Shown: one piece after another, positions 22,042-43,646 of the stretch
Numbering within the stretch: position 1 is the first letter of the stretch
Layout: each line of letters starts with the position of its first letter
NCBI RefSeq assembly: GCF_028609865.1
Contig: NZ_CP063194.1
Span: forward strand, 2,480,001-2,544,000
DNA length: 64,000 nt
DNA from: Corynebacterium jeddahense
GTDB lineage: Bacteria > Actinomycetota > Actinomycetes > Mycobacteriales > Mycobacteriaceae
Direction: 5' to 3'
The notes under the pieces: model-generated
The model's database searches: none
Told to the model about the DNA's origin: nothing
What the model saw: the letters and a program-made list of their open reading frames with translations, nothing else
Program-made: the position numbers and the translations under genes

Positions 22042-22969
22042 TTGGGTTCCCCGAAAACGCTGCAGCTTTTCATGATGGACGGCACTGCCGCCGGGCCGAT
22101 CAAGGCCTCGATTAGAAATTGAGTCGGCCGGGTCTATTCAATCCCGCGCACCGAGCTCAATTCTGAAGAACTCCGAGGCGTCCGGAGCGAACCACCCCGC
22201 GGTGTACTTCCTTGTTGGCACGAACCCGGAGACGGACAAGCCGCGCATTTACATCGGCCAAACCGCGCCCCGTCAGAACGGCGTCGCATTTGCCAGGGCC
22301 GCCGAGCATTCACGCAGCGCGGACAAAGACTTTTTCAACCGCATCATCTACGTGGTTGTGGTGGATGACTCCTGGGGCGCCACCGAAATCACCTTCCTGG
22401 AAAACGCCTTCCACCAGCGCGCCATTAAGGCAGACCGTTACGAAGTCGCCAACGGCAACACCCCGTCCGCCGGCAGTGTCAGCGAAGAGACCCAAGCAGA
22501 GTTGGACGAGTTCATCGAGAACACCAACCTCATCATCAGCGCTCTAGGCGTTTCCGCATTCCAGCTGAAGGCAACTTCGTCGAAGTCTCGCACCTCGACC
22601 AACTCGGCTGCAGCCCCGGCGCGCCCGAGCGATGACGAGGAACCGGTCTTCGAGCTCACCGTTCTCAGCCAAGGTGTTCAGGGCCTAGGCCAGCGCACCG
22701 CTTCCGGCTTCCTCGTCCTGGAGGGATCCACGTTGCGGCCGGAGCTGCGTCCCAGCGCGGACCAGATCCAGGACAACACGCTGACCTCTGACTTGGAGTT
22801 CACCAGCCCGTCCGCCGCAGCGGCGTTCTTGGTGGGCGGTGCAGCAAATGGCAGAACGATGTAGCACCTGCAGGATGAACCGTCCACCACGCTCGCAGCC
22901 TGGGAAGACCGCGAGGGAGACGAAGCCGACCAGCAGGCAGTGCTGCCCGAGCCGCCCGAAACCCCCTAA
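22042..22969 (+). pseudogene. GIY-YIG nuclease-family gene with two stop codons and a frameshift
   Basis: The reading can be followed through three lesions. From TTG 22042 it reads SPKTLQLFMMDGTAAGPIKA and then meets TGA (22120-22122) where the family has Trp. Next, VGRVYSIPRTEL is followed by a one-base frame change near 22155-22175. The open part from 22202 carries VYFLVGTNPE and PRIYIGQTAPRQNG, the GIY-YIG-like core. At 22862 a TAG again replaces a Trp codon, after which HLQDEPSTTLAAWE continues to TAA 22967. This family usually occurs as a ~300-residue protein with a C-terminal DUF4357-like part. It ends tail to tail with the UvrD-like gene. Either a decayed gene or one needing correction. 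Confidence 0.75.
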
Positions 22970-25329
22970 CCCTCCGGCAGCAGCTCCGAGCGCTCGCCGA
23001 CCGTGGTCACCACCAGCGCGTCGCGGGCGCGCGAGGCCGCCACGTACAGCAGCGAGCGCTCCCGCTGCAGGGCAGCGCGGGCGTCTTCCTCGGATAGGTT
23101 CTTCAGGCGGAACCGCAGCGGCATGATCTCCTTGCCCACGCCCATGAGAATCACATGGGTGAACTCCATGCCTTTGGCGCCGTGCATGGTCATCACGGAA
23201 ACCTGCTCGTGGGAGGCCAGCTCGGCGTTCTTCGTCTGGACGGCGTCGATGCCGTGGTCGGCAAGACCGGAGACCACGCGGGAAAGCTGCCCGCGGGTGC
23301 GGCACATCACCCCGACGCGGACTTCCTTGTGCTTACCCTCCTCGGCCGCACGCTCGGCCTCCGCAAGCCAACCGTTGATCAACGCAGCTGCAACGGCGAA
23401 CTCCTCGTCCTCGGACTTGGCGGTCACGATCATCGGCGCCGGGCCGGTGCGCGCGGAGCGGTACCCGGTCACGGAGTCCACGTCGCCCTCGCCGTCCAAG
23501 AACTCCATGTCACCGCCTACCAGGATGCGCAGCGCGTAGTCCAGGTTCTCTTTGGTGGTGCGGTAATTCAACGTTAAACGCCGGGAAGCGCGGCCGCGAG
23601 TAGAAATACCAAAGTGCGACAAGGTCAGCGGGTTGCCGTAGATGCGCTGGTGGGAGTCCTCAGCGATGAAAACATCGTTCGGGCCCTCAGCCACGCACGC
23701 GCGCAGGAACCGCCAGTGGCCGGCGTTGAAGTCCTGGGCCTCGTCCACAACCACGTGGTCGAACAGGGAGCCGCCGCCGCGCTCGTAGCGCACATTCAAA
23801 ATCTCGGCGCCCACGGCGGACATGGTGGGCCAGAACAGCTGCCCGTCGATGGCCTGGGTCTGCATCAACGACTCCAGCACGGCCCACACCTGCTTGCGTT
23901 GCCTGCGGTTCAGCGGCGTGCCGCGGCCGCTTCGTGCGACCTTCAGGTACTCCGCCAGCGTCGTAATGCCACCCGCGAGCACCACAGTCTCGTACTCGGC
24001 CTGCAGGAACGCTTCGTTGGCAATCTCGCGGGGCATGGATTCGTCGGTAGCCTCAAGCGCGCCCTCCCACACTTGGCGCGCGGCCATTTCCGTGTACGGA
24101 CGGACTCGCGGGGCGGCGACGCCGAGGACTCGCCGGGTTGCCTCCGAAACCTCCTCGGGCGTGCCAAGGGAAACCACCTTGCGCACCACGGCGTCGATGT
24201 TGTCCACCCACACGCCGTGCTCGCCGGGCTCGCCGGCCTCGGGGTACAACTGGTTCAGTGCGTTGAGCTGGGACTTCAACCCCTGCGCCAGACCCTTCGT
24301 AAACGTGGTCAGCAACACGCGCGGGCCTGCCCCGGCAACGCGCCCCATGGCCAGGTTGTTCGCGCGGTGCACCGCCACCACCGTCTTGCCGGTGCCCGCA
24401 CCGCCGAACACGCGCGCGGAACCCTTGTACGAGTTCTCCGCCATGCGACGCTGCTCCGGGTGGATGTACACACGCCACTTCTCAAAGCTGCCGGACTCGA
24501 TCACGCTGCGCAGAGACTCGGTATCCACGTCGTCCACGTACGCGAACTCCAGCTCCGCAGCCGCCTGCCGCAGACCAGCCAGCAACCGCGCGTCCTCGGA
24601 CTCCGCCGCCTCCGACGCCGAGACCTTCCGCAGACCCAGCGACTCGCGTGTCTCCTCAACCGAATACCCCGCCACCAGCACCAACACGGCCTCGTGCTCC
24701 CACTTCGGGCGCGGCGCCAGCAACGCATCCAACCCATCCTCGGATTCGAGCGCCAACACCTGCTCGGTCAGCGCCGGGTCGATGCCCAGCTCCTCCCACA
24801 ACTTCTCGGGCGTCAGCTCACCCAGCACCTCGCGCGGGGCGGGCGATTGCTTCTCGACGAGCTCCGCCTCCACCCCTTTCTCCCTCGCAACCGCCTTCGC
24901 CTGCTGGGCCGCCAACTCGTGCGCAGCCTGCGCAGCCGCCTCAGCCTTCGCGCGCGAATCAACATCCGCCGCAGCATCCCCCGCAGCAGGCTCCTCCTTG
25001 ATCAGCGTCGTAATGCCGTTGATCGGGTTCACGTCCAAGCGCAGCCGCGCCGGGTCCAGCCGCTCAGCCTTGAGGTTGCCTTCGTCGTGCGAGTCCACGT
25101 CCACAAGCACGAAGTGGTGCGTGTCCTGGTCGCGGATCTCAAAGAGCACCGCGCGGAACTGGTCGTTGATGCGGCCGGTGCGCACGCGCTTGTCCACGGC
25201 GTTCGTGAGCGTCTTGATCTTCAGCGACGGGTTCGTCGGGTCCGCAGACAGCTTCTGCAGGAAGTTCATCGTCGGCTTCATCAGCGCACCGTCCAGGTCC
25301 AACCCGCTGTACAGGCTAAACGTCACCAT
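22966..25329 (-). CDS. UvrD-type helicase with N-terminal RelE-like domain (DISARM-like operon, last gene)
   Basis: 787 residues. Start set at ATG 25329, which has AAGGAG 7 nt upstream inside the end of the preceding gene (4 bp between them). Superfamily 1 helicase motifs: GGAGTGKT about 307, VVDEAQDF about 525, LNYRTTKE about 585, MTMHGAKGMEF about 708, YVAASRARDA about 763. The first ~110 residues (FLQKLSADPTNPSLKIKTL, VRTGRINDQFRAVLFEI, VDVDSHDE) resemble the RelE/ParE toxin fold; I do not see its catalytic set well enough to claim RNase activity. A ~100-residue Ala/Glu-rich linker follows. Coupled to the large helicase, so likely part of the same defence complex. Confidence 0.88.
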   Translation of the reverse strand: MVTFSLYSGLDLDGALMKPTMNFLQKLSADPTNPSLKIKTLTNAVDKRVRTGRINDQFRAVLFEIRDQDTHHFVLVDVDSHDEGNLKAERLDPARLRLDVNPINGITTLIKEEPAAGDAAADVDSRAKAEAAAQAAHELAAQQAKAVAREKGVEAELVEKQSPAPREVLGELTPEKLWEELGIDPALTEQVLALESEDGLDALLAPRPKWEHEAVLVLVAGYSVEETRESLGLRKVSASEAAESEDARLLAGLRQAAAELEFAYVDDVDTESLRSVIESGSFEKWRVYIHPEQRRMAENSYKGSARVFGGAGTGKTVVAVHRANNLAMGRVAGAGPRVLLTTFTKGLAQGLKSQLNALNQLYPEAGEPGEHGVWVDNIDAVVRKVVSLGTPEEVSEATRRVLGVAAPRVRPYTEMAARQVWEGALEATDESMPREIANEAFLQAEYETVVLAGGITTLAEYLKVARSGRGTPLNRRQRKQVWAVLESLMQTQAIDGQLFWPTMSAVGAEILNVRYERGGGSLFDHVVVDEAQDFNAGHWRFLRACVAEGPNDVFIAEDSHQRIYGNPLTLSHFGISTRGRASRRLTLNYRTTKENLDYALRILVGGDMEFLDGEGDVDSVTGYRSARTGPAPMIVTAKSEDEEFAVAAALINGWLAEAERAAEEGKHKEVRVGVMCRTRGQLSRVVSGLADHGIDAVQTKNAELASHEQVSVMTMHGAKGMEFTHVILMGVGKEIMPLRFRLKNLSEEDARAALQRERSLLYVAASRARDALVVTTVGERSELLPEG

Positions 25330-25333
25330 GGTG

Positions 25334-28300
25334 TCACTCCTTACCCAGCAGCGCGGCCGGGATGGTCTCTGGCGAGAGTGTATCGGGGTACAGCAGCGTC
25401 CAGCCTTGCTCGCGAAGCTTGGCTTCGGCACCCGCGTAGGAGGCGTCCTGCTCGATCAGCAGCGCGATACGTAGCTCGGTCCAGGACATGGCGGTGGGGA
25501 TGGATTCGATTTCCTCGCCGATCTCTTCGGTCGGCGGCGCACCCGCGTCCACGAGGGTGCGCAGCGCGGCGGCCACGTCCGCTTCGTCCTCGAACTCTTC
25601 GATCGCCTCGGCCCACAGCCCACCCACTGCGGCCTCGACGGCACTTTGCTTCTCGACGACCTCCGGTTGCCCAACGCCCACAGCATCACCATCGCCAACG
25701 TCGACCGTAACGGTGTTGTTGGCCAGCCACACGATGTTGGCGAAGCGCAGGAAGTCGCGCCAGTTGTCTTCGGTGATGGAACCGGGTGCCAGCGCGTCGA
25801 CAAGCAGTCGCTGCAGCACCATCTCTTCGCCTACCTTGGCGGCGTCGAAGTGGATCTCGTTGCGGAACGTCAGGCGCGCCCCACCCGGGATGCGCGAGGG
25901 CACCACGGAGGTGCTGAGCATCTGCAGCAGGGCTTTGTCCATGAGCGTGTAGGAGGACCGTTCCGGCTCCGCCAGGTAGGTCAGCAGCTGCGTGATGGGG
26001 GAGGCTTTCAAGAACGCGATCTCATTGTTGCCGATGCCCTCCATGGCGCGCGTGCGCTTCTCCGCTTTCTCGCTGACCCACGACGGTGCGGCCTCGCCGA
26101 ACGTCGTCTCCCGGGCAAACCAATCCAGGCCGGCGTCGGTGACGTTCCACGGCAGGATCTGCTTGTCGCCGAAGTGCAGACTGTTGCGCTTGTGTATGTC
26201 GGTGGGGAAGCGGTAGTGCTGCGCGCTGAAGTGGAACGCGGCACCGTCGGTATAGACGGCCACCGAGCGCAGCAGCGGCTTTCGGCGGTGCTGGAACAGG
26301 AAGTCCGGGCGGGTGTAGCCGTAGTCCACCTGCTCGCGCATGCTCCACTCCTCACCGGTGGCGAACGAGATGTGCCACTCCACGCCGCCGGCGTTGGGGA
26401 TGTCCTTGACCGTCGCATTGCGGGCCTCGAGTGCGTCGCGCACCATCTCGCGGAAGCGGACCTCCAGGTTGGAGGACTGGTCCAGCTGCGGGGCCTCCGT
26501 CTGCGGGGTCCACTGCACCGACATCGGATCCAGGTCCTGGGCGGGGTGGTCCTGGTTGCTCAGGATCGCGCGCATGGCGCGCTCGGCGGCGGCGCGGGAG
26601 GTGACCTCGACGTGCTGGAACAGGGTGTACGGCAGCAAGCAGTCCGGGCAGGCGAGGCGCTCGTCAGCAGCGCAGTCGCAATCCCGCACCTTGGTGAAGG
26701 CCTGCTCGAGGAGCTTGCGGACGTCCTCAGGCGAGGCGAACTGCGAGAGGTACCCGGTGCCGCCCGGCACGTTGTCGTGCATGAGCAGCGCTTCCACCGT
26801 CTTGCCGGTGGCGTCCGGCACGCGCACCGTGACCACGTTGAGGTGGTCCGGGTCGCCGCCGAGGACCTCCTTGAAGCCGAGCTTGATTGCGGCGGTCAGG
26901 CTCGGGATGGTCGCCTTGTCGCCGGCGGTGAGTTGCACCGGCACGTGCAGCAGCACGCCTTGGGTCTGCAGAGTGCGGCCCAGCGCGACCGTGACGGACT
27001 CTTCCTCACGAGCGTTGCGCTTCGGACACCATGGCCTGTGGTCCCACTTCGAGTTCGCGCCCTTCTGCGAATCCAGGTGCCCGCAGTAGTTGCAAACGGT
27101 GAACAGGGGAGCGTCGATCTCCTTGCCCGCCAGCATCTTCTTCGTGGCGGGACCGCGACCCAGGTTGAACCAGCTCAAGTTCACGTACCGCAGGTACTCC
27201 GCGCCGAAGCCCTGGGAGAGGAACCACTTGCCGCCATGGCCGCCGTCTGGCACGGAGAAGCTCAGTGCGGTGTGGAAGAACATGGTGAAGCGGTCTTCGT
27301 GCGAGCCGTCGATGGTCGCGCGCGCACGGTCCACCTCGGCGGAGACTCGGCGCATGCGCACCGTCTCCACAATCTGGCCCTTGTCCGCGAACGCGCCCGC
27401 ACCACAGACCGGGCAAGCACCCGGCGCGGTGCCGGTGACCACCTTTTCGCCGTAGGAGCACTCCGGGCACAGGCGCCACTGCTCCACGTCCGCGCCGCCG
27501 GCACCGAGCTCGACGGCGTCTACCGTGGCGGCGATGCCGCGGGCGTAGAACGTGTTGCCCGGCGCGAGCTCCGTCAGCGCCGAGGACACGCCGCGGGAGA
27601 GCTCGAAGGTCTCCGGGTCGATCTGCATGGACGACGGGTTGAGCTGGGAGACCACCACCGCAAGCTCCACGGAGTCATCCAACAGCGTGAAGTTGGGCAG
27701 CAGCCCGTAGCGCTCCATGGAGCTGATCCAGAACTCGTCGAGCAGGATCTCGTTGTAGTCGCGCCCGGCGCGCCGCCACGCCGCCCGGGTACTGCGCTTT
27801 TCCCGCTCCAACTCCGGGTCGGCGTTCTCGGTGCCCGCGTTCGGGTCGACCTTGGCCTCCAGCTCCTTCAACCGGTCCGCCAACGTGTCCCAGCGCGCCT
27901 GCAGCTCGGACTTTTCGGCCTCCCACAGCAGGCGTGTGCGCTCGAGCTTGCCCAGCAGCGAGTCCGGCCCCTGGCCGCACGCCCACGCGCGCACGCCGTC
28001 CACGGTTGCGGCGTCCACGTGGCCGTCCTCGACCGTGGACAAGAACGCGTCTACACGAGATTCCACCCCGGCCGCGATCTCTTCGCTGAGCACCTGCACT
28101 AGCGACGTCTTACGGCTGCTGAACACGTCCTGCGCGTGTTGCACCTGCAACCCGTTCGCGGCAAACGCCATCGTGTCCACCAGGTACGCGGTGGTCTGCC
28201 TGCGCAGGATTTCGGTGGCGGAGAGGAACGCCGCCGGCGGCACCACAGCACCCGCGATCACGGACAGCGGCTGGTTCAGCTTCGGCAGCATCGTGCCGCG

Positions 28301-31300
28301 CCCCTGCACGAACGCGAGCACCAGCGAGTTGCCGGTCAGGCGCCCGGCGCGGCCCACGCGCTGCACGTACGAGGACACAGACGTCGGCAGCGAGGCGAGC
28401 ATGACCGTGGACAGGTCGCCGATATCAATACCCATTTCCAGCGTCGGCGTTGCAACCAGCACGTTCGGCGCATTCGGCGCCTCGTCATCCGAGCCGCGGA
28501 ACGCTCGCTCGAGCGCCAGCCGCTCCTCCTTGGGGATCAGGCCGGTGTGCTCGCGCGCCACCACCGCGCGCGGGGTGGTGGAGGTGTACAGCCGCGAGTA
28601 GTAGTTCTGCTCGATGCCTTCCGCCTCCAGCTCGCCGAGGCAACCGGGCGTCGGGCACGGCAGCCCGGCGAGTAGGGAGCGGGTTTGCCTGTCCGCGCCC
28701 AACGGTCCCCTGCACACCCCACAGTGCAACATCTCGGCTGCATCCTCGTGGCGCACCACCACGTTCTCCGGTGCAAGCGCGTAGATGATGCCGCCGGAAT
28801 TGGTGGACACCGCCTGCACCGCTCCCTCCCGGGCGAGCACCTTGAACACGTTGGTGAGCACGTTCGTGGCGTCGTGGGTGGAGATCCCCAGCACCTTCGA
28901 CGTCCACCGCGCATACCGCCCGCGCGGGCTGCCCAGGGGAGTGATGCCACGGTCCTTGTCGTCCAAGGCAGCCCCCGAGCGCGGGAACTCGGGTGCTCCG
29001 CCCTTGGGGAAGCTCGGCATACCGTGCGCCTTGGCAAAGCGGTTGTGCAGGCGCCACGAGTTCGCGTCGTCCTGCAGGTAGCTCTTCAACATCGGCGAGT
29101 ACACGCCGCCGCGGTCGCGCACCTGCTCCAGAAGGCCCCGCAGCCAGCGCAGCCGCAGCTCCGGCGAGCCGGCGTCCGCGACCTCAAACAAGCCCTCGTC
29201 CACGTGCTGCAGCGCCTCCTCGGCAGCCGCCAGCAGGACTTCATCGTCCACCTGCACCGACGGCACCAGCGCACCCGTGGACACCAACGAGCGCGGCAGG
29301 TGCGCACGCTGCCCGAACTCGAGCGCGGCATCCAACTCCAGGCGGTGCAGCGCCGCAGTGGTGGCCTCGCGACGAGCCGCGGTATCAGCGTCCTTCGCCC
29401 AAAACGGCGTGAACGTGGTGGTCTCCGCCACCTCCGGCGGCAGCAGCTCAAAGCGCGCACGCGCCGGGTCCGCGGCCCCGTCCGCACGCCCCAGGATCCG
29501 CATCGGCATCTGCGCAAGCGACACCTCGTCGTCGCCGACGACGCTGCGCATCAGCGTACGGATGCCAAACGCACGCGCCCTGGACTGCACGAAGCCCGCG
29601 CGGTGCGCCGCGTCCTGCACGGAGTCCGCGAACACCAGCGTCTTCTTCTCATTCTGCTCCAGCGACGGCATGCCGAACAGGTTGGATAGCCCCACCGACA
29701 GCAGTGTGGCCACGCGCGAGCCGATGTAGCGGATGGCATCCGCCTCCCCGCACGACGGGCACGTCTGCTCACGCGCGAGCTCCTCGGTGTTAAGCCCAGT
29801 GTACGTAAGCACCGGCACGGAGCTGCCCTCAGCGAGCTCTTCCTCGCTGGGCTCGGTACGCGACAGCGTGCGGGATTTGGTGTGGAACCACATCAGCACA
29901 CGGTTGCCGTCTTCGTCGCCGAGCTGGGTCAGCTCCAGGTGGTTCTTCACGGCTTCGCGGTGCTCAGCGGTGGCATCGATGAGCGGACGTACGAGCTCAG
30001 GCTTATCGACGCTCGCCTTCCGAATCTCCGCCCCATTGAGCACCACCGCATCCGTACCCGGCTCAAGTGCCGTCATCCACCCGGCGCGACCGCACGAGCG
30101 GCAGTACGTGGCCGGCAGCCACACCCCGGCGTTGTCGCCGCCGAGCTGCCCGTCGTCCGCGAACCGGAAAGTCTCACCGTCCTCGGTGGGTGTGACGGCT
30201 CGCTCGATGCGGGAGACCTCGCGCACCCACAAGTGCGTTTCCACACCTGGCAGGCGTTTGCCTCCGAAACCGAACTCATCGCCGGCAAGCGCGCGGATCT
30301 GCGCCACGGCGGTGAGCAGGTGGGTGGCAAACTCCCGCGCAGTGGTCTCGCCCAGGGTGCGCACCACGATCGGGTCGAACATGGCCTCCGGCAGCGACTT
30401 GCCGCCCTCGCCCTCACGGCGGATCAGGGACTTCGCCGGGTTAGCCGCGCCCAGGAGCCTTTCCGTCAGCGGGTGCACCGCATACGCGGCGATGGTGCTC
30501 TTCAAATCCGCGCCGGCGTCCACGCCCCACAGCTGCGTACGGAACACATCCAGCACCACCTCGGCGTGGTCGCGGCCGGAGTTGTCGCTAGCGATCGCGT
30601 CCACGATGCCGCGCAGCTGATCGATGTCGGGAGAGAGGGGAGCGGCATGCGCGCCAAACGACTGCGCGATCTCGTCCGTCCACTCCGTGTACGTCAGCGT
30701 CTTTTCCCCCACCAGCGCATCCGGAGTGAACGTCTCACCGAAGATGGTCTCGGCGAAGTCGAGCACCTTCTGCGTGTCGTCCTTGCCACCGAGGGTTGCC
30801 GAGGTCGCCACCGGCGTGACCCACCCCAGCGGGTTCGACGCGTACTCGCCAGCGAACCCTTCCGGTTGGTGCTGCTTGAGCATCAGCCCTAATCGACGAA
30901 GCAACAACGCCACGTCCGTGCCCTGCGCACCGTCATAGGTGTGGAACTCATCCAGCACCAGGTACTGCAGCGAGGTTGCTGAGCGCTTCCAAATCTCCCG
31001 GTCAGCCTCACGCAGCAACAGCTGGTCCAACATTTTGTAGTTGGTGAGCAGGATGTCCGGCGGATCCTGGCGGATCTGGTCACGGTCGTTAATCAACGAA
31101 TCCTTCGTGACCTTCTTGACGCTGCCCGTCGCCTCACCCGTGTAAATACCAGCCGTGACACCGGCAAGCGCCGGCTCACTGGTAATCAGCTTGGCCAGAC
31201 GATCCGCCTGGTCATTCGCCAACGCATTCATCGGGTACAGCAGCAGCGCCTTAGTGCCGCGCTGCCCCTCAGCGCGAGCCCGCGCCGCGTGATCCAGCAC

Positions 31301-32886: not shown

Positions 32887-33632
32887 TAATCGCAGACACC
32901 GGCCCCCTTTCCCACCTATCAAAGTCTGGCCACCTCGAAGTTCTCCGCCTAGTCACTAAGCTGGGGCTAAGCTTCGGCATCCCCCGTGAGGTGCAAAAGG
33001 AGCTCCAAAGAGACGACTTCACCAACTCACGGGTACTTAACTCAGACCTGCTTTGCGTTCTAGCTTTAGACGCTGACGCGGACGGACAGGCGAACTTCAT
33101 TCGTGAGACTAAATTTCCGAAGGAGAGTCCTCTTGCGCGACGGATTTCTAGAAATCCGAATCCTCAAGCCCCAGTTAAGCATGCAGGTGAGTCTGCATGT
33201 ATTGCGTACGCGGTTCATGGGATTTTTCCGCAACAACCAGTTGTTTGGATCGATGACGGTCGTGGAAGAGAAGTTGCTAGGCAGATGGGGCTCGTTTGCC
33301 TTACCACCCTCGATGTAATCGCATGTTTAATTAGACTGCACCTGCTCAATCGCAATGAAGGCGAACGGATCGTGGACGATCTTCTCGGCGTGCAGGCGGA
33401 CAGCCTTCTCGTCCCTCAACAGCCCGATTACATACTTCCCGTCGATTCGGGTTCGGAGTTTTCGCGACAATGGCAACTCTACGGCCCACTTACGGCACCA
33501 GAGCGGGACTGTATTTGTGAGGATTGCATATACGCAAATAACTTGCCCTCGGACCTACCTGCCCACCAGACTCGTGGGCTTTGTCACCTAGCAACTGGGT
33601 GGGTGCCACAGCGCTGTGGAGAAAACAGTTGA
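32883..33632 (+). CDS. PIN-like nuclease, partner of the Xre-ImmA protein
   Basis: 249 residues from a TTG start overlapping the upstream stop codon. PIN-type acidic positions are visible: IIADTGPLSHLSKSG (Asp about 4), a conserved Glu in GESACIAYA (about 103) and WIDDGRGREVARQMG (Asp about 122). Such RNases are common toxins, and pairs of PIN-like genes with Xre-COG2856 proteins have been predicted as toxin-antitoxin modules. The C-terminal ~70 residues include CICEDCIY, a possible metal site beyond the PIN fold. It lies between the two halves of the DISARM-like operon. Confidence 0.7.
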   Translation: MIIADTGPLSHLSKSGHLEVLRLVTKLGLSFGIPREVQKELQRDDFTNSRVLNSDLLCVLALDADADGQANFIRETKFPKESPLARRISRNPNPQAPVKHAGESACIAYAVHGIFPQQPVVWIDDGRGREVARQMGLVCLTTLDVIACLIRLHLLNRNEGERIVDDLLGVQADSLLVPQQPDYILPVDSGSEFSRQWQLYGPLTAPERDCICEDCIYANNLPSDLPAHQTRGLCHLATGWVPQRCGENS

Positions 33633-33671: not shown

Positions 33672-34050
33672 AAAGCTTCCTCAAACCTCTTGTACGCCTC
33701 CCGCATACGCCTCCCGGTCCAACTGCCTAAACGGATACTCGTACACGTACTCCACACCCGACTGCGGATGCGCCCACGTCCGATCCGCCACCGACAACTC
33801 CGCGCCATCCTTCAACTTCGCATCCGCCTTCACAATCTCCTTCGGCACCTTCCGACCATTCGCATCAAACCGATCCTCCTGGTCATAACGACGCATCACC
33901 GGAAACTGCGTCCGATAAATCATGCACAACTCATCCGCCGTCACACCCAACGACAACGCCACAATCGCATCAATCTCCACCTGCGCGGCCCGCCGCTCCT
34001 CATCCTTTCGCAAAGGCTTATCGACGTTCCAAGGTTCCCCCATCAACTCC
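33672..34050. repeat. Direct repeat, left copy (methyltransferase 3' end)
   Basis: About 375 bp nearly identical to 36232-36610 in the same orientation (the methyltransferase C-terminal coding region). A 2-bp deletion near 33707 changes the last residues in this copy. The two copies bracket about 2.2 kb containing the HEPN-like gene. Confidence 0.85.
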
Positions 34051-34058
34051 TCCCGCAA
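33681..34058 (-). pseudogene. 3' fragment of a second PglX/Eco57I-type methyltransferase gene
   Basis: 125 codons matching the C-terminal ~120 residues of the intact methyltransferase at 36218-40777 ([40 protein letters not shown]). The scattered, mostly synonymous differences suggest divergence and not a duplication of yesterday. The N-terminal >1,300 residues are absent and the final 10 residues are frameshifted. It marks the left border of the HEPN-gene insert. Confidence 0.85.
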
Positions 34059-34522
34059 AGGAACCAGATTGAAAGAGGGCGCGCGACTCGTATGCTCGCG
34101 TGAATGTCATCTAGCATGCCATAGACCTCCCGTCGCATCGCATCGATCCTGAGCTGGAGATCCGAGCCTCTCGTGTCGGAAAGCTCCTCGGCTCTCATCA
34201 CGACTACCCCGAACGGAGCCACATACGCGGTGCAAAACTTTAGTCTGCGTTGACATCTTGCGTCTAAGAAGCTTCTACATGTCCGCGACACCAGCTATCC
34301 TTCTACGTAAGGTGTCTCACCGCTGGGAGAGGACTTGTTCTCATTCGCGCACAGACCACCCTTTCGCCGCGTAATCCATTACCGCCCGGTGTCAGTCACG
34401 ATCAGACACCTCTGATAGCGTCGCGCGCCCTGAGGTCGCGCGGTCACCAGAAACTTCCCCCGGACAGTTTCTCGATACTCAACACGGTGGTAATAGCTAC
34501 GCCGCACAACACTCAGCATGGT
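34059..34522. other. 460-bp stretch without a clear gene
   Basis: Lower GC than the surroundings. A minus-strand frame (34043-34291) contains AMRREVYGMLDDIHASI, which looks coding-like but has no recognisable domain or good start and runs into the methyltransferase fragment; it may be the remnant of a gene cut at the recombination border. Nothing else is supported. Confidence 0.4.
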
Positions 34523-36112
34523 TCACTCGTTTTCTTCGGCAAATCGCTCTAAAGCATCTTTGTATCCGATATCTGATGGGTATAACAGCAGTTTAGGAGA
34601 CATCTCGTAACGGTATGTTTCCCATACCTCCCGGCCGGTAAGGAAATCTAGCTCGTAATCCAGCAACTGGATCACAGGACCGGCCTCGGGCTGGATGGGT
34701 ACACGCCGGCCGATCTCCTCTGTGATTTCTTGTGGTAGGCGCGAAATAACAGCGCCACCCGAATGCACTAGGAATGATTCCTTCGGCCCATCCTCGGATA
34801 CAACAACCTGAAGAACACTTTGTTCTGGGTCTACCAGCTGACCTATCAGGGTCGGACTACTCCGTAGCGAGACAACCATGTCACTCCAGCGGCGGAAGGT
34901 TTGAAGACGAATACGGAGTTGCGAGAGCGACTGTTCGATAGGCGAAAAACGCTCCCACTCACCCCGTTTAACGAGTTGGGCTTCACCCAAGAGCGCGATG
35001 GTCGTGATTGGAAAACGCGAGCGACTTGCGAAAACCTCGTTCTTAACCCAATCCTGGAATTCGAAAAACGCCCGTTCACATCTCTCAATCTCCTCACGGG
35101 TGACTCTTTTCCCGCCGTGGATTACATGATTTCTTGGCTCAACTACGAACTTAGTCCATTGTCTAAACGGTTCCGGCTCATCGCTCGGACCAAAAGTGGA
35201 ACCTCTTAGGAGGCTCAGCGCTTTCTTCTTCATAAGCGAAACAACCGATTCTGGTACAGGGGTTCCCCCTTTTTTCGCTTTGGCGCGGCTTCGGAGAAAG
35301 AACTCTGACGCTTCATGGGGCGTCGTCTGTTGTTCCCACAACAGATGTTGCACTAGTTCGTCTATCGCTGATTCGCACGAGGCTGCATACAAAATCATTG
35401 CGATCTCATATTCACCGGTTTCTTTCTGTTGACGAATTGCTTCTTCGAGCAGCTCCGACGACCGAACGAAAGGCCCCCTCTCAGCATGGTTGATTAGCGC
35501 AGCCTCGATCCAAAGATCCAGCTCATCCGGCTGCGGGGGATGCGTTGAAACTACCGGTCGGGTTTCCCTTAGCTGCATCCAGCCATCGATCTTTAGACGT
35601 GTCAATTTTCCGGGACGGATTTCCCAAGGCTCAAACAATCCTATTCCGACTGGAAGAGCACTTGGTAGAAGTTCAACGCGCACCTTTGCAAGTGGCATTT
35701 GTAGCGCTAGCGACAAAGCACCAATCCATTCATTTGCCATTGCCACCGCATGCGAAAAGGCATCCTCCCGATTAGAACGCCTCCCCCAATCGCCGATCTT
35801 GCTAAACCTCTGGCTAACAACAACCTCAAGAACCGTGACAGGTTTACTAACTTGGACTGCTGACGGGGCGGCGACCCGTTGGGTAGATGCAACCCGGGTA
35901 GCGATAGACGCAAATACGGCTTCCTCAGCAGTACCTGTCGTGTCCTGCGCAAACACTTGGTGGGCGATAATCGCGACGCCATCAGGGAGCTCCATAGCTT
36001 CTCCCAGAGAGCTGTATATCATTCCAGTCGGTGTCTTTAGTGTGACTTTCCCATGTGGAAGAGGCAACACATCCAGAAGTGGTAGAAAGAAGTGCCAGGA
36101 TGCTACTCTCAT
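34523..36112 (-). CDS. HEPN-like protein of unknown function, cargo of the defence operon
   Basis: 529 residues, not recognised as a named family. The N-terminal ~230 residues look beta-rich; the middle is helical and contains VEPRNHVIHGGKRVTREE (about 322-340). RNHVIH fits the R-x4-H signature of HEPN RNases, and AASCESAIDELVQHLLWEQQ (about 244-263) could be the first HEPN helix pair. Codon use is less GC-rich than in the flanking helicase and methyltransferase genes. It is bracketed by direct repeats of the methyltransferase 3' end and read in the same direction as the operon, so it probably serves as an added effector (inference). Confidence 0.65.
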   Translation of the reverse strand: MRVASWHFFLPLLDVLPLPHGKVTLKTPTGMIYSSLGEAMELPDGVAIIAHQVFAQDTTGTAEEAVFASIATRVASTQRVAAPSAVQVSKPVTVLEVVVSQRFSKIGDWGRRSNREDAFSHAVAMANEWIGALSLALQMPLAKVRVELLPSALPVGIGLFEPWEIRPGKLTRLKIDGWMQLRETRPVVSTHPPQPDELDLWIEAALINHAERGPFVRSSELLEEAIRQQKETGEYEIAMILYAASCESAIDELVQHLLWEQQTTPHEASEFFLRSRAKAKKGGTPVPESVVSLMKKKALSLLRGSTFGPSDEPEPFRQWTKFVVEPRNHVIHGGKRVTREEIERCERAFFEFQDWVKNEVFASRSRFPITTIALLGEAQLVKRGEWERFSPIEQSLSQLRIRLQTFRRWSDMVVSLRSSPTLIGQLVDPEQSVLQVVVSEDGPKESFLVHSGGAVISRLPQEITEEIGRRVPIQPEAGPVIQLLDYELDFLTGREVWETYRYEMSPKLLLYPSDIGYKDALERFAEENE

Positions 36113-36217
36113 CGTCCCTTCGAGACTTTCCCCTCACGTAAAAACGAAATCAACTCCGGCCGGAAGAACGGCAAGACTCCACGGCCATACAATTACTCGC
36201 AGTCGATAAGTAGAACG

Positions 36218-39200
36218 TTACTCCCGCACCATCCCCTCAAACCTCTCATACGCCTCCCGCATATCCGCCTCCCGGTCCAACTGCCTAAACGGGTACTCGT
36301 ACACGTACTCCACACCCGACTGCGGATGCGTCCACGTCCGATCCGCCACCGACAACTCCGCGTCGTCCTTCAACTTCGCGTCGGCTTTCACAATCTCCTT
36401 CGGCACCTTCCGACCATTCGTATCAAACCGATCCTCCTGGTCATAGCGACGCATCACCGGAAACTGCGTCCGATAAATCATGCACAACTCATCCGCCGTC
36501 ACACCCAACGACAACGCCACAATCGCATCAATCTCAACCTGCGCCGCACGCCGCTCCTCATCCTTACGCAAAGGCGTATCGACGTACCAAGGTTCCCCCA
36601 CAACCTCTTCCCACAACGGGGCATAGGCCTCGGTGAGGCAGTTGAGCCGGAGATACAGGTTCCGTGCCTTCGTCATCAACGGGTTATCAGCGGGAAGAGG
36701 AATCGTCCGAATGATCGCATTCGATATATGGGCAGAACCCGCCGATCGGACAGCGAAATCAGTGAGCAACGTGCTCATCACTGTTCCGGCGGCTGCAGTT
36801 TCAAAGACGGATGTTGACGCGCACGAGTTTACGGCGTTCACATGGGCAGCCCCGGGCGGGATTATTGCTGGGTAGAGCGTGCGATACCCAGTTGTAGCTG
36901 CCATTTCACGCCACGCAACGCGAAAGAAATCCTTCGCCGAGTTCACCTGATCGCCATGCTCGAATTTTGAATAGTCGAAGTCATACGTCGGCTGCGCATC
37001 CCGGTCCGGTTGGTAGGCCGTAGCCGGAATGAAATCAGCAGCCATCGCCTCGAGATCGATTTCAGACCAATCCTGGTTGTGTTTCAGAGTGGGGTTTGGC
37101 TGTTTGATCATGGGAGTTGAGACCCCAAGGTGGGGCCCTTGGAGAATCACGTCATTCCAGGAATCAGGGTGTTTCCACCCTGTATCGAAGTATCCCGCCT
37201 TCTTGTCGGCGGATTCGTGCCAACCTGCGGAAAACTGTAGCCCCAGTTGCCCGATACGGGGAGCGGAAGCAAGCTTCTCGAGTACCTCAGCGGCTTCGGA
37301 GTTTACGGTGTATACCATGCGAGCCTCGATAGACGGAACCGATTCATCCTCAAGAATTGAGTGCCAGACTTGCAAAGTGTGCTTGTCGACAATTTGAAGC
37401 CGATCACGATGAGGTCGAAGGTCCCAGTTGTAATCGGGATCTTTGATGCCAGGAAGGTCCCCAGTCCCATCATGATGGACTGAATCTTGAGCGGTTGCCG
37501 GGTGGTACATGCGACCGGCCATGACGAATTTAGGCCCCTCGAGTTGAGATCCGTAGAGGTGCACACCGTAGACCACGTGATCGTCGATATCGAACAGCAT
37601 GAGTGCGTTGATGAACTGCCAGTGACGCCTCAATCGCAGATATGCGCCTCGACGCAGGCGAGCAGCCTTCTTCTCTGTGAAATGGGACTCCGGGTGAATG
37701 AGCGAGATAACGCCTTCTGACGAGGTATTTCCCCAGGTGCGTTCCATGAATCCACGGTAGAGATCTGGCTGCTGACCAGTGAGGTGCGGATATCGGGTCA
37801 CATCGGTCAACACCGCAGATGTCGCTACTGACTCGCCGAGACCTCGGTACACGACTTCGCGAGTCTGCCCATCATCGTTCCACTGCTCCCGGCGCGCTTT
37901 CTTCGCTGCTTGCGTCGGCTTGTGTGCCAGTGAGAACCACGGATCGGCTTCGGAGTACAGAGCATCCAGATCGGTACGTGGCCGCACCCACGGCGGGTTG
38001 CCTACCTGCAGGTCGAAACCCTCGCGGGCGAAGACCGCGGCGAAGTCGAGGTCCCAGTGGAAGAAGCCTTGGTCGGCGGCGACGGACTGCACCACGTTGA
38101 GCCACGGGTGGTTTGACAGCACGGTCTCGATCTTGCGGGCGCCGGAGAGGCCTATCTCGGTGCGCTCGAGCTGGACAAGCTCGTCCCAGTTGGTAGCGCT
38201 GGCCAAGCGGATCTGGCTGGCGTCGCGGGCCTGGGTGTCTACGCCGAGGATGTCGGTAAGCGCAGAGAGCCACTCGTCCAGGTCCGGCAGCTCTTCCGTT
38301 GCAGTGAGGGGCCAGAACGTCAGGGCGTTCCAGGCGTCCATGACTAGGCGCAGGCGGAGGTAGGCACCTTCGGCGTCGTGAAGCAGCTCCCGCTCAATCT
38401 GTTCGCGGCGGACGTTCTTGGCGGTGTGCTCGGTCTCGCGGCCCCACAGATCAATGTCGCGGCGGATCTGGTCCTCCGCGATACGCATCTTCGACAGCGT
38501 GATGGCCCACAGGGACTCCACGCGGGCGGCGAGGTTGGTCAGCTTCTTCGTCTGTTCCTTGGTGGGGGCCTTGCCGGTGACGGAGCGTCTCCAGGCCTTC
38601 ATGGCGGTGATCTCGTCCTTGGCCAAGGTCTTCAGGTCCTTCGCGTCCGCTGCCGCACCCCAGGTGGAGGAGGGGAGGAGGAATTGGTGGATGCGGCCGG
38701 AGGTGTGGATGTCCTTGGGCTCGCCGGCGTCGATAGCCTCTGCGAGGTTTTGTACCGGTTCCCGGCGCGGCACGGCGGTGAGCCACTCGCGCTTCTTCAG
38801 CTGCGCGGTGGAGTAGGTCGACCGCAGTGCACCGATGAGCGAGTTGCCACGGCGCAGGTGCAGGCCGAACCACGGGGCCTTGAGCTGGCTGGTCATGGTG
38901 TCCAGCCAGAGGGAGATCTCGGCGAGCTCCACCGCGGTGGGGTTGAGGTCCACGCCGTAGACCTGGTGCAGGGCGATGTGGGCCTTGACTTTCTGCAGCT
39001 CAACGGCGCGGGTCTCGGGGTCGACCTGGGTGTCCAGCTCGTCCTCGCGTAGCTTCAGGTACAGCTCAGCCAGCTGACGCACCGCTTCCACGGCGAAGGC
39101 GCCGGAACCCATGGCGGGCTCGCAGATGGTCAGGCTGAGCACGTCGTCGGATGTTTCGATGCGCCCTTCCTCCTGGAGCACTTCGATGGCCTGGCCAACG

Positions 39201-40777
39201 GTGAACTCGGTGAGTACCTGCGGGGTGTAGAAGGACGCGGAGCGCTCGCGGTCGCGGCTGGACTGGCGGAACACGAAGGAGCCGGCCGGGTGCTCGCGGC
39301 GCACCTTTGAGGTGCCGCCTTCCTCCATCTGCTTGGTCTCCATGACAAAGCTGTCCTGCGGCACGGTGTCCGCGGCGTGGGTGGGCAGCACCCAGGAGCC
39401 CTTGGAAGCGTCGCCCTTCGGTGCGACCTCGTAGAGGTCTTCCTGGGCGATGAAGCCGTGGTAGGACATCAGGCCCTCGTAAACCTGGCCGAGCTCGGTG
39501 ACACCCAGGGTGGCGTAGGAGATGAAGCCGCGGTCCTTGCCGGCGGAGACCTTCGACAGCAGCAGGTTCTGCAGGACGCGGGTAAGGGCGTCGTTGGAGA
39601 GCTTGGCTTCGTCGATAAGCGAGGTGGCCTCGCGCTTGAACAGGTCCGCCTCGAGGTTGCGGAAAGTCAGGCCCTCGTTCTGTGCGTCCCGGTCGGCGCC
39701 TGCGGTCTCGAGAGGGTCGTGGCCGTCGTTGACCTGGGTGAACAACAGCTGCAGCGAGTCGTAGAGGTGGGTGCCCCGGCGCGCCTTGTCGGTCACTGGC
39801 GGGTTGAGAATCTGGTCGCGGAGGCGGTCCAGGCCGTAGCCCTCCACGTACTCCGGTGCGCCGGTGGGCAGGATGGCCAGCTCCGGGGAGGCCTCGGCGA
39901 AGAGCAGGAAGAGGATGCGGTACAGGTAGCGCAGCGACTGGTGGGCGAGCTCGTTGCCATCGACGCCGTCGATGGGCAGGTTGTGCTCCCGGCGGCGGTT
40001 CAGGACGTCGTTGCCGATGATCTCGATGGACTCGCGCACCGCGTCACGCAGGTCGCCGGAGACCTTCACGGCGTGCTGCTGGGATTCCTCGCGGGTCTCG
40101 GCCCACCAGGTGGTGCCGTCGGCGGCGCGCTCCAGGTTCTCGCGGGCGAGGATAACGGCGACGCGCTCGAGCTCGCCGGCTTTCTTGGTGTCGTTTCGCT
40201 CCACCGCCAGCTGCAGGTTTACCGCGAGGTAGCGGCCCAGCGGCCAGGACTCGCGCTCGGCGAGCACGGCCCACGCACCGGCGAGGACCACGATGAACTC
40301 CGGGGGTTCGGCGGCGAGGAAAAGGTCGCCGACCAGCTTGGATACTTTCGCCTGCTCCGGATCCTTACCCTTCGGGGCGATGCCACCGGTGACGGGGAGT
40401 GTGGTCAGGTCTTCCTCGGTGGTGGCCTCGTCGACCTCGGCGCTGACCACCACCAGCGTGCCGGCGTTGCCCACCCAGCCCTGGTAGGTAAACGTGTCCC
40501 CGGCGCGGGTGTAGCGCTGCGTGGTGGGGGAGCCGTAGCTGAACGCGGCGCGCACGAGCGCGTCGGTAGGCGATTGCGTCGCAAAGGCTTGTTGCAGCTC
40601 GCCACGCTCGGCTTGGAAACGCTTGACGGGGGAGGGGGCGCCCGATTCCTGCTCCAGCTGCGCCCACTCCTTGGTGCGGTTTTTCACGCGTTTGGTGAAG
40701 GACTCGCCCTCGTCGGTGGTGAAGTAGTGGTCGCTGATCCATTCATCAACGTTGATGATTGAGTCGTAGGTAGCCAT
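36218..40777 (-). CDS. PglX/Eco57I-type N6-adenine DNA methyltransferase (DrmMI-like)
   Basis: 1,519 residues from ATG 40777 ([19 protein letters not shown]), with AAGGAG upstream inside the end of the SNF2 gene. S-adenosylmethionine motif I is [14 protein letters not shown] near 551 and the catalytic NPPW is in [12 protein letters not shown] near 926. Between them lie [20 protein letters not shown] and [13 protein letters not shown], typical of Eco57I/PglX enzymes. It would modify host DNA so that the helicases spare it. No PglZ, BrxC or BrxL gene accompanies it, so this is not BREX; neighbours fit class 1 DISARM. Its last ~375 bp exist a second time at 33672-34050. Confidence 0.92.
36232..36610. 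repeat. Direct repeat, right copy (intact methyltransferase 3' end)
   Basis: Partner of 33672-34050; part of the intact gene. Confidence 0.85.
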
Positions 40778-40781
40778 TGAT

Positions 40782-43646
40782 CTACTGCTCCTTCGGCAGG
40801 ACGAGGACGAGCGGGCGGATAAGTTCACGGTCTGGTTCAAGCGAGGCGATCAGCGCGCGCTCCTCAGCGATCAGGTTCGCGGAGCGGCCAACGCGCAGCA
40901 TCTGCTGGCTGTCGTCCTTGGCGTGCTGCCAGCGGTCGGCGCGGTCGATCCAGTACTCGATGCGGCTGGTTGCGTGGTTGCGGGCGGCCGCCATCATCGG
41001 CTGCAGCTGGTTGCCGGCGATCTCCACAGACTTTGCGACGAGCTCCTGCGCGTTGTCCGGCAGTGTGAGCGTTTCCGGGTTGATGGCGTTTTCGGTCAGA
41101 TCGATGCCGCGCAACCACGCCACCGGGTCCTCGATGGTCTTGGGCAGCATGCCGCCAGCGACGGTGACAAAGGCGCGGGAGACCACCTGGCCGCGCTTGT
41201 TAGTCAGCGTGGCCATCAGCAGCACGGTGGGCATGTCCACCTCGCCCTCGATGGCGGTGATCTGGCCGGACGACAGCGAGGCCAGCGCGCGGTCCGTGGC
41301 CCAGTCCGTCACCGGGTGCAGCGGGCCCAAAAAGTGGGCCTTGGGCCACGTGGAACCGTCCTGGCCGGTGCGCGCGTTGCGCAGGATCTCATTGCCCACT
41401 GCGGTGTTGGTGGCTAGGAGGAACTTCTCGCGCACCTTGCGGTCCGCCAGGTAGTCCTGGGGCAGCACGTCCAGGCGGCGGCGCAGGTCCTCCGGCGGGG
41501 CGAGCTCGGCCACGCCGTTTTTGCCCAGCTCGTAGGCCACGCCGTTGGCGGCAAGCGCCTTCTCCGGTGCGCCGTAGAAGGCCTCGTTCAGCGCATCTTC
41601 CAGGTAGGCGATCTCCGAGGCGTACAGGCTCGTCGTGTGCGGGGCATTGGGGTCGGAAACGGGGCTTTCCGAAGGTTCGTCGTCAAGCCCGAAGCCCGAC
41701 ATCCACAGGTCGATGAGATCCTCCTCAGACTGCGCATCCGCACTCGCGACCTGCTCCGGGGACTTGACCACCTCATCGAAGCCGGCTTGGTTCTGGATCA
41801 CCCGGCGGATCTCATCCTCCTCGCCGGAGACGGTGTGCTTGCCGATGAGCGAGCCGACGTCGCCAAGCAACGCATGCGCCTCGTTCTCGCGGTTGATCAG
41901 CTTGGTCAGCACATGCAGCTCGCCCACGTAACCGCCCTGCTTCGTGTCCAGCAGGAGGGCTGCGATCTGCGGGGGTTCCATCTGCCCGTAGCGGTCCACG
42001 CGGCCGTTTCGCTGCTGGATGCGGATCAGCGACCACGGAATGTCGTAGTGGACCAGGTTGTGGCACAGCGTGTGCAGGTTCACGCCTTCCGACGCCACAT
42101 CGCCCGTGACCAGGATGCGCAGCTTGGAATCCTCGCGCTTGAACTCGTCTACGAGCCGCATCTGCTCCTCGTCCGAGAGCCCGCCGTGCATGACCTCCAC
42201 CGAACCGGCCGGCATCTTCAGGTCCTTGGTCAGGTTCTCCTTGAGCCAATGCAGCGTGGCCACCCGCTCCGAGAACACCACCGCCCTGGTTGTCTTGCCC
42301 TTGCCCACGCCGATCTCCTGGAGATAGTTGACCAACGCGGCGTACTTGTTGGAGTTTTGGCGGGTGACCTTGGCGTTGAGTGCTTTGAGGCGTTCCAGGG
42401 CTTCGCGCTGATTGGTGTCTGTTTGGGGGACGCGTTTGAGGCGGTTCTCGATGGTCTCTCCCAGCGCGGCGGGGGAGGAGAGGAACGCCTTGACCAGCGT
42501 CCACGGGAACAGGCGGTCCTGGGCCGGGTTGGCCTTGGCGCTATCCGGGTGGATCCAGGTCTGCTCCAACTCGCCAGCGACGGCGTTTTCCTCCGCGGAG
42601 GCCTCCACCGGGATGTTGACGGGGTCCTTGCGCTCCGCCCACTGCTCGCCGACCACGCTGGCGACCTCGTCGCTGTGGCGGTGGCGGCGGATGAGCAGGC
42701 GGGACACGGCGTCCTTGTCGATCTCCCCGTTGGGCAGCACCGCCGTGGGGTCCAGCAGGCGCAGGATCTCCTTGAAGCTCTCCGGGTCGCCGTTGTGCGG
42801 GGTGGCAGACGCCAGCAGCAGCGCCTCGGTTGTGGGCGCGAGGGTGCGGGCCAGCTCGTTGTTCTGGGTGCCCACGTTGGTGGCATTGTGGATCTCGTCG
42901 ATCACCACAGCGTCCCAGCGCACCTTCTCCAGCTGCGCGCGGTACTTCGGGCTCTTCAGCGTGTCCATGGACACGATCACGCGCGGGAAGTAGGTAAACG
43001 GGTTGCGGCTGGCCGGCAGCATTTGGCGCACGCGCTGGATACCGGTGGAGTCCAGGCGCACCAGCGGGATGGCGAAGCGTGACCAGAGTTCCTGCTGGAA
43101 CTGCTCCATGATGTGCTTCGGCGTGACCACGAGGATGCGCTCGCCGCGGCCGCGGCGGATCAGCTCGGAGAGGATCATGCCGATCTCGAGGGTCTTGCCC
43201 AGGCCGACGGCATCCGCGATGAGCACGCGGGGGCGGAGGTTGTCGTCGCTAAGCGCTTTGCGTACGGCGGTGAGCTGGTAATCCAGCGGATCCATGAGCA
43301 TCTGGTCCGCAACCGACAGCTCCTCCTGGTAGAGGGGCACGGGGGTCTGGCGCAGGGTGGTCTCCAGCCACAGGCGCGTGGTGCGGTAGCCGGGGGAGCG
43401 GTCCGGGACGACCTCCACCTTGGCGGGGTCGAAGACCTCCACGTCGTCGATGGCGGTGTAGAAGCTCGCCGTGGTGTCGCGGACGTAGTCCGACAGGCCG
43501 CGCACCTTGAGCAGGTACCCGTCCACGGACTGGGTGACGCTGGTGATCAGCCACAACTCGTCGCGGACCTTGACCATGAGGCCCGGCGCGTAGGCGGTGG
43601 AGTTCGCCGCATTTTCGGTGCGCGCTTCCTGCGTGGGAGAAGACAT
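40782..43646 (-). CDS. SNF2-type helicase (DrmD-like), first gene of the DISARM-like operon
   Basis: 954 residues, superfamily 2. Motifs: ADAVGLGKTLEIGMIL about 142, ILVVTPKHIMEQFQQEL, VVIDEIHNATNVG about 245, LLLASATPHNGDPESF, LVTGDVASEGVNLH about 510 and RIQQRNGRVDRYGQ about 540. The N-terminal ~100 residues (VKVRDELWLITSV) are a small beta domain seen in this helicase subgroup. It precedes the methyltransferase by 4 bp, the same drmD-drmMI order as in class 1 DISARM. A ParB site lies ~80 bp upstream. Confidence 0.92.
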   Translation of the reverse strand: MSSPTQEARTENAANSTAYAPGLMVKVRDELWLITSVTQSVDGYLLKVRGLSDYVRDTTASFYTAIDDVEVFDPAKVEVVPDRSPGYRTTRLWLETTLRQTPVPLYQEELSVADQMLMDPLDYQLTAVRKALSDDNLRPRVLIADAVGLGKTLEIGMILSELIRRGRGERILVVTPKHIMEQFQQELWSRFAIPLVRLDSTGIQRVRQMLPASRNPFTYFPRVIVSMDTLKSPKYRAQLEKVRWDAVVIDEIHNATNVGTQNNELARTLAPTTEALLLASATPHNGDPESFKEILRLLDPTAVLPNGEIDKDAVSRLLIRRHRHSDEVASVVGEQWAERKDPVNIPVEASAEENAVAGELEQTWIHPDSAKANPAQDRLFPWTLVKAFLSSPAALGETIENRLKRVPQTDTNQREALERLKALNAKVTRQNSNKYAALVNYLQEIGVGKGKTTRAVVFSERVATLHWLKENLTKDLKMPAGSVEVMHGGLSDEEQMRLVDEFKREDSKLRILVTGDVASEGVNLHTLCHNLVHYDIPWSLIRIQQRNGRVDRYGQMEPPQIAALLLDTKQGGYVGELHVLTKLINRENEAHALLGDVGSLIGKHTVSGEEDEIRRVIQNQAGFDEVVKSPEQVASADAQSEEDLIDLWMSGFGLDDEPSESPVSDPNAPHTTSLYASEIAYLEDALNEAFYGAPEKALAANGVAYELGKNGVAELAPPEDLRRRLDVLPQDYLADRKVREKFLLATNTAVGNEILRNARTGQDGSTWPKAHFLGPLHPVTDWATDRALASLSSGQITAIEGEVDMPTVLLMATLTNKRGQVVSRAFVTVAGGMLPKTIEDPVAWLRGIDLTENAINPETLTLPDNAQELVAKSVEIAGNQLQPMMAAARNHATSRIEYWIDRADRWQHAKDDSQQMLRVGRSANLIAEERALIASLEPDRELIRPLVLVLPKEQ

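Follow-up and report, generated by a model that had tools for sequence, protein, structure and literature searches.

What kind of defense system places a DISARM-like helicase and a DISARM-like methyltransferase beside a very large helicase and a RelE-UvrD protein, and what are foreign genes doing in the middle of it? The locus that raises the question lies in Corynebacterium jeddahense, whose genome (assembly GCF_028609865.1) is a single contig of 2.57 Mb; the window analyzed here is a stretch of 64,000 nucleotides of it (NZ_CP063194.1, positions 2,480,001 to 2,544,000, forward strand, numbered from 1 below). An original prediction had read four leftward genes as one continuous operon of a divergent DISARM system. 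Our analysis points elsewhere: the four genes very probably form an ARMADA Type II anti-phage system that holds a nested cargo slot between its second and third genes, armB and armC.

Identity of the four-gene core

The four large minus-strand open reading frames (ORFs) of the original prediction, encoding an SNF2 helicase, a methyltransferase, a helicase of 2,108 residues, and a UvrD helicase, are all present where it had placed them (Table 1), and the stop codons of the SNF2 and large helicase genes are each followed by a 4-bp gap, with AAGGAG inside the preceding gene, as described. Its domain reading of the four proteins was right, the RelE-UvrD fusion included. A partner set for the large helicase has, in substance, already been described: judged by sequence, the four genes are armA, armB, armC, and armD of ARMADA Type II, in which a BrxHII-like helicase, a PglX-like methyltransferase, a YprA helicase, and a GajB-like helicase follow one another in that order, and for which Actinomycetota are one of the two main host groups (Bell et al. 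2025, PMC12458937). The order is kept in the window, though armB and armC are interrupted by 4.5 kb.

One line of evidence comes from residues with a known phenotype. Defense by the Escherichia coli system needs all four genes and is non-abortive; of the mutants made in strain NCTC 12900, six abolished defense, while ArmD D454N and ArmB G605A weakened it (PMC12458937). With the ARMADA locus of E. coli ATCC 8739 as comparison, all eight mutated Walker, GxG, and NPPW residues were found at their stated positions in ATCC 8739 and conserved in the window (8/8): ArmA K151 and D250 correspond to E. coli ArmA K136 and D236, and the GxG and NPPW residues of ArmB and the Walker residues of ArmC are likewise retained. 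Identity to ATCC 8739 over aligned positions is 37% for ArmA, 33% for ArmB, 31.5% for ArmC, and 34% for ArmD.

Two terminal domains add to the match. A C-terminal motif, W..Q..PDF..DG..H..D..KR, which the original prediction had overlooked along with the cargo, is common to the window and E. coli ArmC and missing from E. coli DruE; across 72 aligned ArmC sequences, conservation exceeds 97% for the W, first D, DG, H, last D, and R and 85% for the Q, P, F, and K. Motif and published assignment together satisfy the description of a predicted Vsr-type PD-(D/E)xK nuclease. The N-terminus of ArmD aligns with that of E. coli ArmD and, through this homology and the published assignment, qualifies as a putative RelE-like domain.

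DISARM and Druantia as alternatives

The reading from which the work started, a divergent DISARM or a DISARM/Druantia hybrid with drmA and drmB fused and a RelE-UvrD gene in place of drmC, draws on strong matches of the DrmD and DrmMI profiles to the first two proteins and on the DUF1998 part of the YprA helicase, which DISARM encodes separately. Against these stand curated thresholds: DrmD scores 339 bits against an NCBI cut-off of 610 and DrmA 23.5 against 999, and neither a DrmB model nor DrmC nor a PLD domain occurs among the listed matches of the scanned ORFs. ArmC, ArmD, the gene order, and the catalytic residues agree instead with published ARMADA II. Membership in class 1 DISARM is ruled out by the DrmA and DrmD cut-offs and the missing DrmB match; what stays true is a kinship of two genes, and we consider the DISARM reading highly improbable.

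Druantia membership is excluded by pairwise scores, since window ArmC reaches 588 bits against E. coli ArmC and only 116 and 79 bits against E. coli DruE. The profile check that the original prediction had called for, on whether the large helicase falls clearly within DruE, agrees: Druantia DruE profiles match ArmC in pieces only, E. coli ArmC is far closer, and DruH is absent from the best 25 matches listed per protein of the scanned ORFs. The locus is thus neither DISARM nor Druantia, because residues, gene order, and ArmC similarity all match ARMADA II; the suggestion of an intermediate between the two comes near the "missing link" as which ARMADA is portrayed by Bell et al. (PMC12458937), but the locus is not a divergent DISARM. 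The ArmC tree used below is rooted on one DruE, and the comparison includes neither ARMADA Type I nor other DruE proteins, so the tree itself is no test of placement between ARMADA and Druantia. The absence of PglZ, BrxC, and PLD genes claimed earlier holds for the listed matches of the scanned ORFs, which are part of those in the window. Two models of PLD helicases do match ArmA, solely in its helicase part.

A slot between armB and armC in one Corynebacterium lineage

The four genes do not form a continuous operon. Between the methyltransferase and helicase genes lie 4,557 bp that hold one same-strand gene, a copy of the armB 3' end, and two opposite-strand genes, with a GC content of 53-56% against mostly 63-68% on both flanks. 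Is this gap peculiar to one genome, or a property of the system?

At a threshold of E <= 1e-50, ArmC is present in 43 of 394 genomes sampled from the class. Among 242 genomes of Corynebacterium species, 52 carry an armC match when fragments are counted; among named relatives, eight of nine are Corynebacterium and the remaining one Flaviflexus. The synteny check bears out the expectation that the four genes travel together. They stand in the order A-B-C-D in 42 of the 52 Corynebacterium loci, the ten exceptions being two at contig ends (G545 and G460; G and L numbers are our own labels), two fragments (G484 and G508), and six in which one or two genes are missing from the fetched stretch (G537, G502, G423, G515, G583, and G584). 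The same order holds in 24 of 28 other loci, with the remaining four cut at contig or stretch ends; these 28 comprise 22 actinobacterial genomes (the best matches among the 42 others in the class sample) plus Flaviflexus, Tsukamurella, Nostoc, Gemmobacter, and two E. coli.

Each of the three junctions (A-B, B-C, and C-D) was measured across loci. In Corynebacterium, B-C is measurable in 45 of 52 loci: it spans at most 96 bp in 26, contains foreign ORFs over 2.4-14.8 kb in 12, and carries inverted armB copies in 5, with G515 (958 bp) and G442 (an alignment artefact) set aside. In the 12 insert loci the other two junctions are closed, at -83 to 3 bp for A-B and -98 to 8 bp for C-D; elsewhere, armA and armB of G435 are 2.1 kb apart. 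In other genera, B-C is at most 130 bp in 24 of the 26 loci where it could be measured; in Nostoc it is 621 bp long and contains a small ORF, and G132 has 2,702 bp, but with armB aligned in two pieces.

In a tree of 72 ArmC sequences and the one DruE, from which eight disrupted or fragmentary sequences were dropped, the 12 insert loci fall into one clade (support 1.0) that also includes G545 and G460, in which the slot is inferred across contig ends, and G537, in whose 34-kb stretch armA and armB were not found. The cargo label (14 tips, 12 measured and 2 inferred) changes twice on this tree, against a mean of 13.0 and a minimum of 10 when shuffled.

In E. coli complete genomes, armC occurs in 518 of 5,426, with 15 of 525 places on plasmids. 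The armB-armC junction of ATCC 8739 is 80% kept in just 171 of the 518, a low retention likely due to swapping of the recognition region.

Cargo genes in the window and in related loci

The cargo gene behind armB in the window (cargo 1 in Table 1) has no Pfam match and a weak PADLOC match to Csx1/Csm6 (CARF plus HEPN; 1.5e-4, residues 197-351). Its RNxxxH residues R327, N328, and H332 are invariant in six aligned sequences, the window's included, four of them at 31-32% identity, and an RNase effector of HEPN type is predicted. An origin as a phage or plasmid gene was considered and rejected, with zero phage matches and two distant plasmid matches. Of the opposite-strand pair, cargo 2a matches PADLOC PDC-S70 (2.8e-10) and no Pfam family above cut-off; its N-terminus looks PIN-like, making it a candidate toxin. 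Cargo 2b matches Pfam Peptidase_M78 (3.4e-10) and HTH_3 as well as the PADLOC profiles capP and RmrA. This helix-turn-helix (HTH) gene is divergent from armC and could therefore control armCD. Promoters between the two were a candidate that did not stand: the interval has zero sigma-70-like matches, and the whole region has one against a shuffled mean of 3.2.

Thirty ORFs of related loci were scanned against Pfam (27 from measured slots, 2 from the G545 contig, and 1 before armC in G537) and 20 against PADLOC. Defense-like genes occur in 11 of the 12 slots, a call that was made by sequence comparison for G488 and G544 and from the ORF list for G526; the one ORF scanned from G503 gave no defense-like match. 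The matches include FRG (PDC-S15), CHAT, Hypoth_Ymh, an OLD-type nuclease, two ApeA-like HEPN proteins, a PIN toxin, a PD-Lambda-5 A and B pair, an NB-ARC protein, and a DUF2326/LmuB-like protein; the inferred slot of G545 has AbiU/AIPR and Mrr, and an Abi_2 gene precedes armC in G537. Thirteen of the 30 ORFs have no Pfam family at E <= 0.01. The inserts differ in nearly every species of the clade.

Copies of the armB end as probable scars of exchange

When the slots were searched with the whole ArmB protein, direct copies proved to be of its C-terminal end only, from residue 1377 onward (1540-residue numbering), a block that sits just behind the variable recognition region (about residues 1050-1390 of window ArmB). 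The two blocks of the window (Table 1) are the sole matches at E <= 1e-8 in its genome. The left edge of the copies has a Shine-Dalgarno-like GGAGGAG followed by TTGATG. Several copies contain stops, frameshifts, or deletions and are therefore mostly remnants. That they might be independent small genes was rejected on this decay, a position-3 excess being present in only some of seven compared. Fragments of the armC 5' end lie in four slots (G488, G579, G395, and G544).

A relict locus in G628 (L177, L186) keeps three armB-end copies, a 243-residue cassette, and the armD 3' end; the 40 kb fetched there have no match to armA, armC, or full armB.

That cassettes are more alike than their flanks speaks for an exchange with its anchors in the armB end and the beginning of armC. 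Over the stretch that runs from the armB-end copy to the first bases of armC, G446 and G488 are 95-100% identical in 19 successive 200-bp segments (17 of them at 98-100%), while the armC segments that follow are each 66-88% identical and armA-armB 86%. The window and G579 share the unit of armB 3' block, 529-residue cargo gene, and 125 bp at 94.6% identity over 2,220 bp; by comparison, the stretch that covers armA and most of armB reaches 88.7% and armC-D 84.1%. In the window this unit is the first element after armB, and in G579 it lies far along the array.

The eleven distinct left junctions of the copies lie 435, 413, 398 (the window), 391, 386, 385, 383, 382, 365, 267 (G446), and 266 nt before the stop, the 391-nt junction being behind a 243-residue cargo present in four genomes. 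Three remnants of 31-46 bp (G395, G488, and G579) are left out, and for the copies of G488, G575, and G628, where an apparent 789-nt left end is a short match elsewhere in G579 armB, the junction was taken from alignments and distances. On the right, 14 of 17 entries end within 18 nt of the stop and the other three 50, 75, and 148 nt before it.

Might each cassette instead integrate site-specifically at the armB 3' end, bringing a replacement end and displacing the old one, whose left edge would be the attachment site? Site-specific elements in icd or guaA offer parallels. The 382-398 nt spacing at 6 of the 11 junctions and the start of cargo shortly after the armB end favor such a process; the other five junctions are scattered, none of the 30 scanned ORFs (part of the slot ORFs) is an integrase, and a common arm to the left of the copies, as expected of a site-specific element, was sought by eye in the cargo flanks and dismissed. 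The left ends also cluster just where the variable recognition region has its edge, so that an end-of-homology effect is possible. Both processes fit the preferred left edge; as an account of the slot, we hold integration to be unlikely.

A further alternative is that cargo and repeats are passive debris of random insertion, tandem duplication, and decay, with neither exchange nor function. The fragmentary or relict loci G484, G508, and G628, the IstB gene of an IS21 element inside the G579 slot, and the disrupted armB copies are what it would lead one to expect. It sits poorly with near full-length armA-D matches in all 12 measured cargo loci, with A-B and C-D junctions that remain closed, with the prevalence of defense-like genes, and with a near-identical cassette in two diverged loci (G446 and G488), and we rate it as quite improbable.

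Inverted armB copies

In five genomes, partial inverted copies of armB, from the recognition region to the C-terminus, lie directly 3' of armB and tail to tail with it: G439 (L096/L145), G435 (L097/L146), G609 (L100), G519 (L107), and G557 (L126). No stop interrupts the aligned part in five of six. Those of G439, G435, and G557 are 94-100% identical to armB in some 50-bp segments near the outer edge and fall to roughly 40-60% within the recognition region; near-identical segments of this kind are absent from G609 and G519. The arrangement looks like a switchable ArmB recognition cassette, for which inversion of BREX pglX is a parallel.

A working model

Most likely, the core is a restriction machine guided by DNA modification. 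In the marking-and-cutting scheme that we infer, ArmB would mark host DNA at a site that its variable recognition region specifies, ArmA and ArmC would translocate on unmarked phage DNA, and the Vsr-like domain of ArmC would cut it; ArmD, essential in E. coli, is assigned no step. The need for all four genes and the non-abortive character of protection would carry over from E. coli by way of the conserved residues and gene order. The slot would have opened once, in the ancestor of one Corynebacterium lineage, and small defense cassettes would have been exchanged since, most likely by homologous recombination anchored in the armB 3' block and the armC 5' end, with surplus armB ends and pieces of armC left behind as scars. 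The cargo of the window, an HEPN-motif gene and a PIN-like/ImmA-IrrE pair, would then probably form a suicidal second line of defense that backs up the direct one.

Some observations pull the other way. Profile searches of solved structures gave no credible relative for the ArmC C-terminus or the ArmD N-terminus; since they supported neither fold, the Vsr and RelE assignments rest on motifs and the published assignment. Plain homologous recombination by itself does not explain why left ends fall within 16 bp of one another at six of the eleven junctions. An armB-end copy is absent from four of the 12 measured slots (G544, G503, G526, and G527) and amounts to just 46 bp in G395. The evidence for exchange comes from few pairs, because the 529-residue cargo is carried by just 2 of the 52 loci. 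The cargo genes may also be neutral passengers.

A more ambitious extension, which is tentative and which we regard as doubtful, would make the armB-armC junction a dedicated cassette dock. Units of armB 3' block and cargo would be added and exchanged at a favored position, with the armB end restored at every insertion, and ARMADA would in this way collect interchangeable suicide modules; with silent inverted armB recognition cassettes in related loci, specificity and back-up effector would both be switchable.

Locus layout and neighboring genes

Table 1. Features of the ARMADA locus, by position in the window
Feature	Position	Strand	Description	Evidence
armA	40782..43646	-	SNF2/RapA-like (BrxHII/DrmD-like) helicase, 954 aa	Pfam SNF2-rel_dom, Helicase_C; DrmD and BrxHII profiles
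armB	36218..40777	-	PglX-like N6-adenine methyltransferase with C-terminal variable target-recognition-like region, 1519 aa, ATG at 40777	Eco57I, MmeI_Mtase, N6_Mtase; PADLOC type IIG profile, 2206 bits
armB 3' block	36235..36619	-	Repeated unit, conserved	93.5% over 385 bp to 33679-34061
Cargo 1	34523..36112	-	529-aa protein with HEPN-type RNxxxH motif, predicted RNase effector	Weak Csx1/Csm6 match and motif
Second armB 3' block copy	33679..34061	-	Without the rest of the gene, frame shifted near the end	93.5% to 36235-36619
Cargo 2a	32883..33632	+	249-aa PDC-S70-type protein, PIN-like N-terminus by eye, candidate toxin	
Cargo 2b	31819..32886	+	HTH and ImmA/IrrE (M78) protein, candidate antitoxin/regulator, divergent from armC	
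armC	25334..31660	-	YprA-family DEAD/DEAH helicase with DUF1998/MZB and C-terminal Vsr-like PD-(D/E)xK motif, 2108 aa, GTG start	Pfam DEAD, Helicase_C, MZB (DUF1998-type)
armD	22966..25329	-	Putative RelE-like N-terminal domain fused to GajB-like UvrD helicase, 787 aa, ATG at 25329	Pfam UvrD-helicase, UvrD_C; PADLOC GajB profiles

Before armA (43767-45399, minus strand) lie a 189-residue protein of no credible family and an ImmA/IrrE (M78) protein, a pair that recurs in a few relatives and is a possible regulator of armAB. Just upstream of ARMADA, 46035-52660 (minus strand) holds a Wadjet/MksBEFG-like set of JetD, SbcC-like, DUF4194, and DUF3375 genes, the last three of which presumably take the remaining Jet letters; with this set beside ARMADA, the window is a defense island. 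A PDC-S14/DUF4357 gene (22202-22864, plus strand) adjoins armD, a HipA-like kinase gene (19870-21027, minus strand) lies near the locus, and the neighborhood includes a Schlafen AlbA_2/RecG-C protein (55079-56866, minus strand).

Relation to known systems

An experimentally tested system, ARMADA II, here extends to Corynebacterium with all tested residues kept, and a clade-specific slot within its operon is a place where defense genes turn over. Since the slot offers a natural cassette series with clear recombination scars, the embedding of defense genes in other defense operons becomes testable in it, and its 13 scanned ORFs outside Pfam families make it a source of candidate defense genes.

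Among known systems, class 1 DISARM is alike in that its DrmD and DrmMI are related to the SNF2 helicase and PglX-like methyltransferase of the window; it differs in having separate helicase and DUF1998 proteins, which the window joins in one chain, and in cut-offs that the window proteins do not reach. Druantia Type III (DruE-DruH) is alike in that DruE is the top-scoring PADLOC family for ArmC, but E. coli DruE lacks the Vsr-like motif and scores far lower against window ArmC. ARMADA II of E. coli agrees in gene set, order, domain architecture, and catalytic residues; there, armB and armC overlap, whereas in the window foreign genes separate them.

Genetically embedded defense genes were reportedly described by Payne and colleagues in 2024. 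Further precedents are DarTG2 embedded in a type I restriction-modification system (PMC12255303) and effectors inside BREX loci (PMC12839542). Within the literature searched (titles and abstract starts; main texts without supplements), no paper describes inverted cassettes or cargo genes for ARMADA. In its main text, PMC12458937 uses "cargo" three times, for mobile elements carrying ARMADA, has "inver" once, in a reference, and does not contain "accessory," "phase varia," or "Corynebact." The precedents are alike in placing defense genes between the genes of another defense operon; the window differs in that the host operon is ARMADA and in that the slot is confined to one clade of the sample and in most cases contains copies of the armB 3' end. 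The ARMADA core and the embedding of defense genes are thus already known, and what this locus adds, within that literature, is a clade-specific cargo slot inside the operon.

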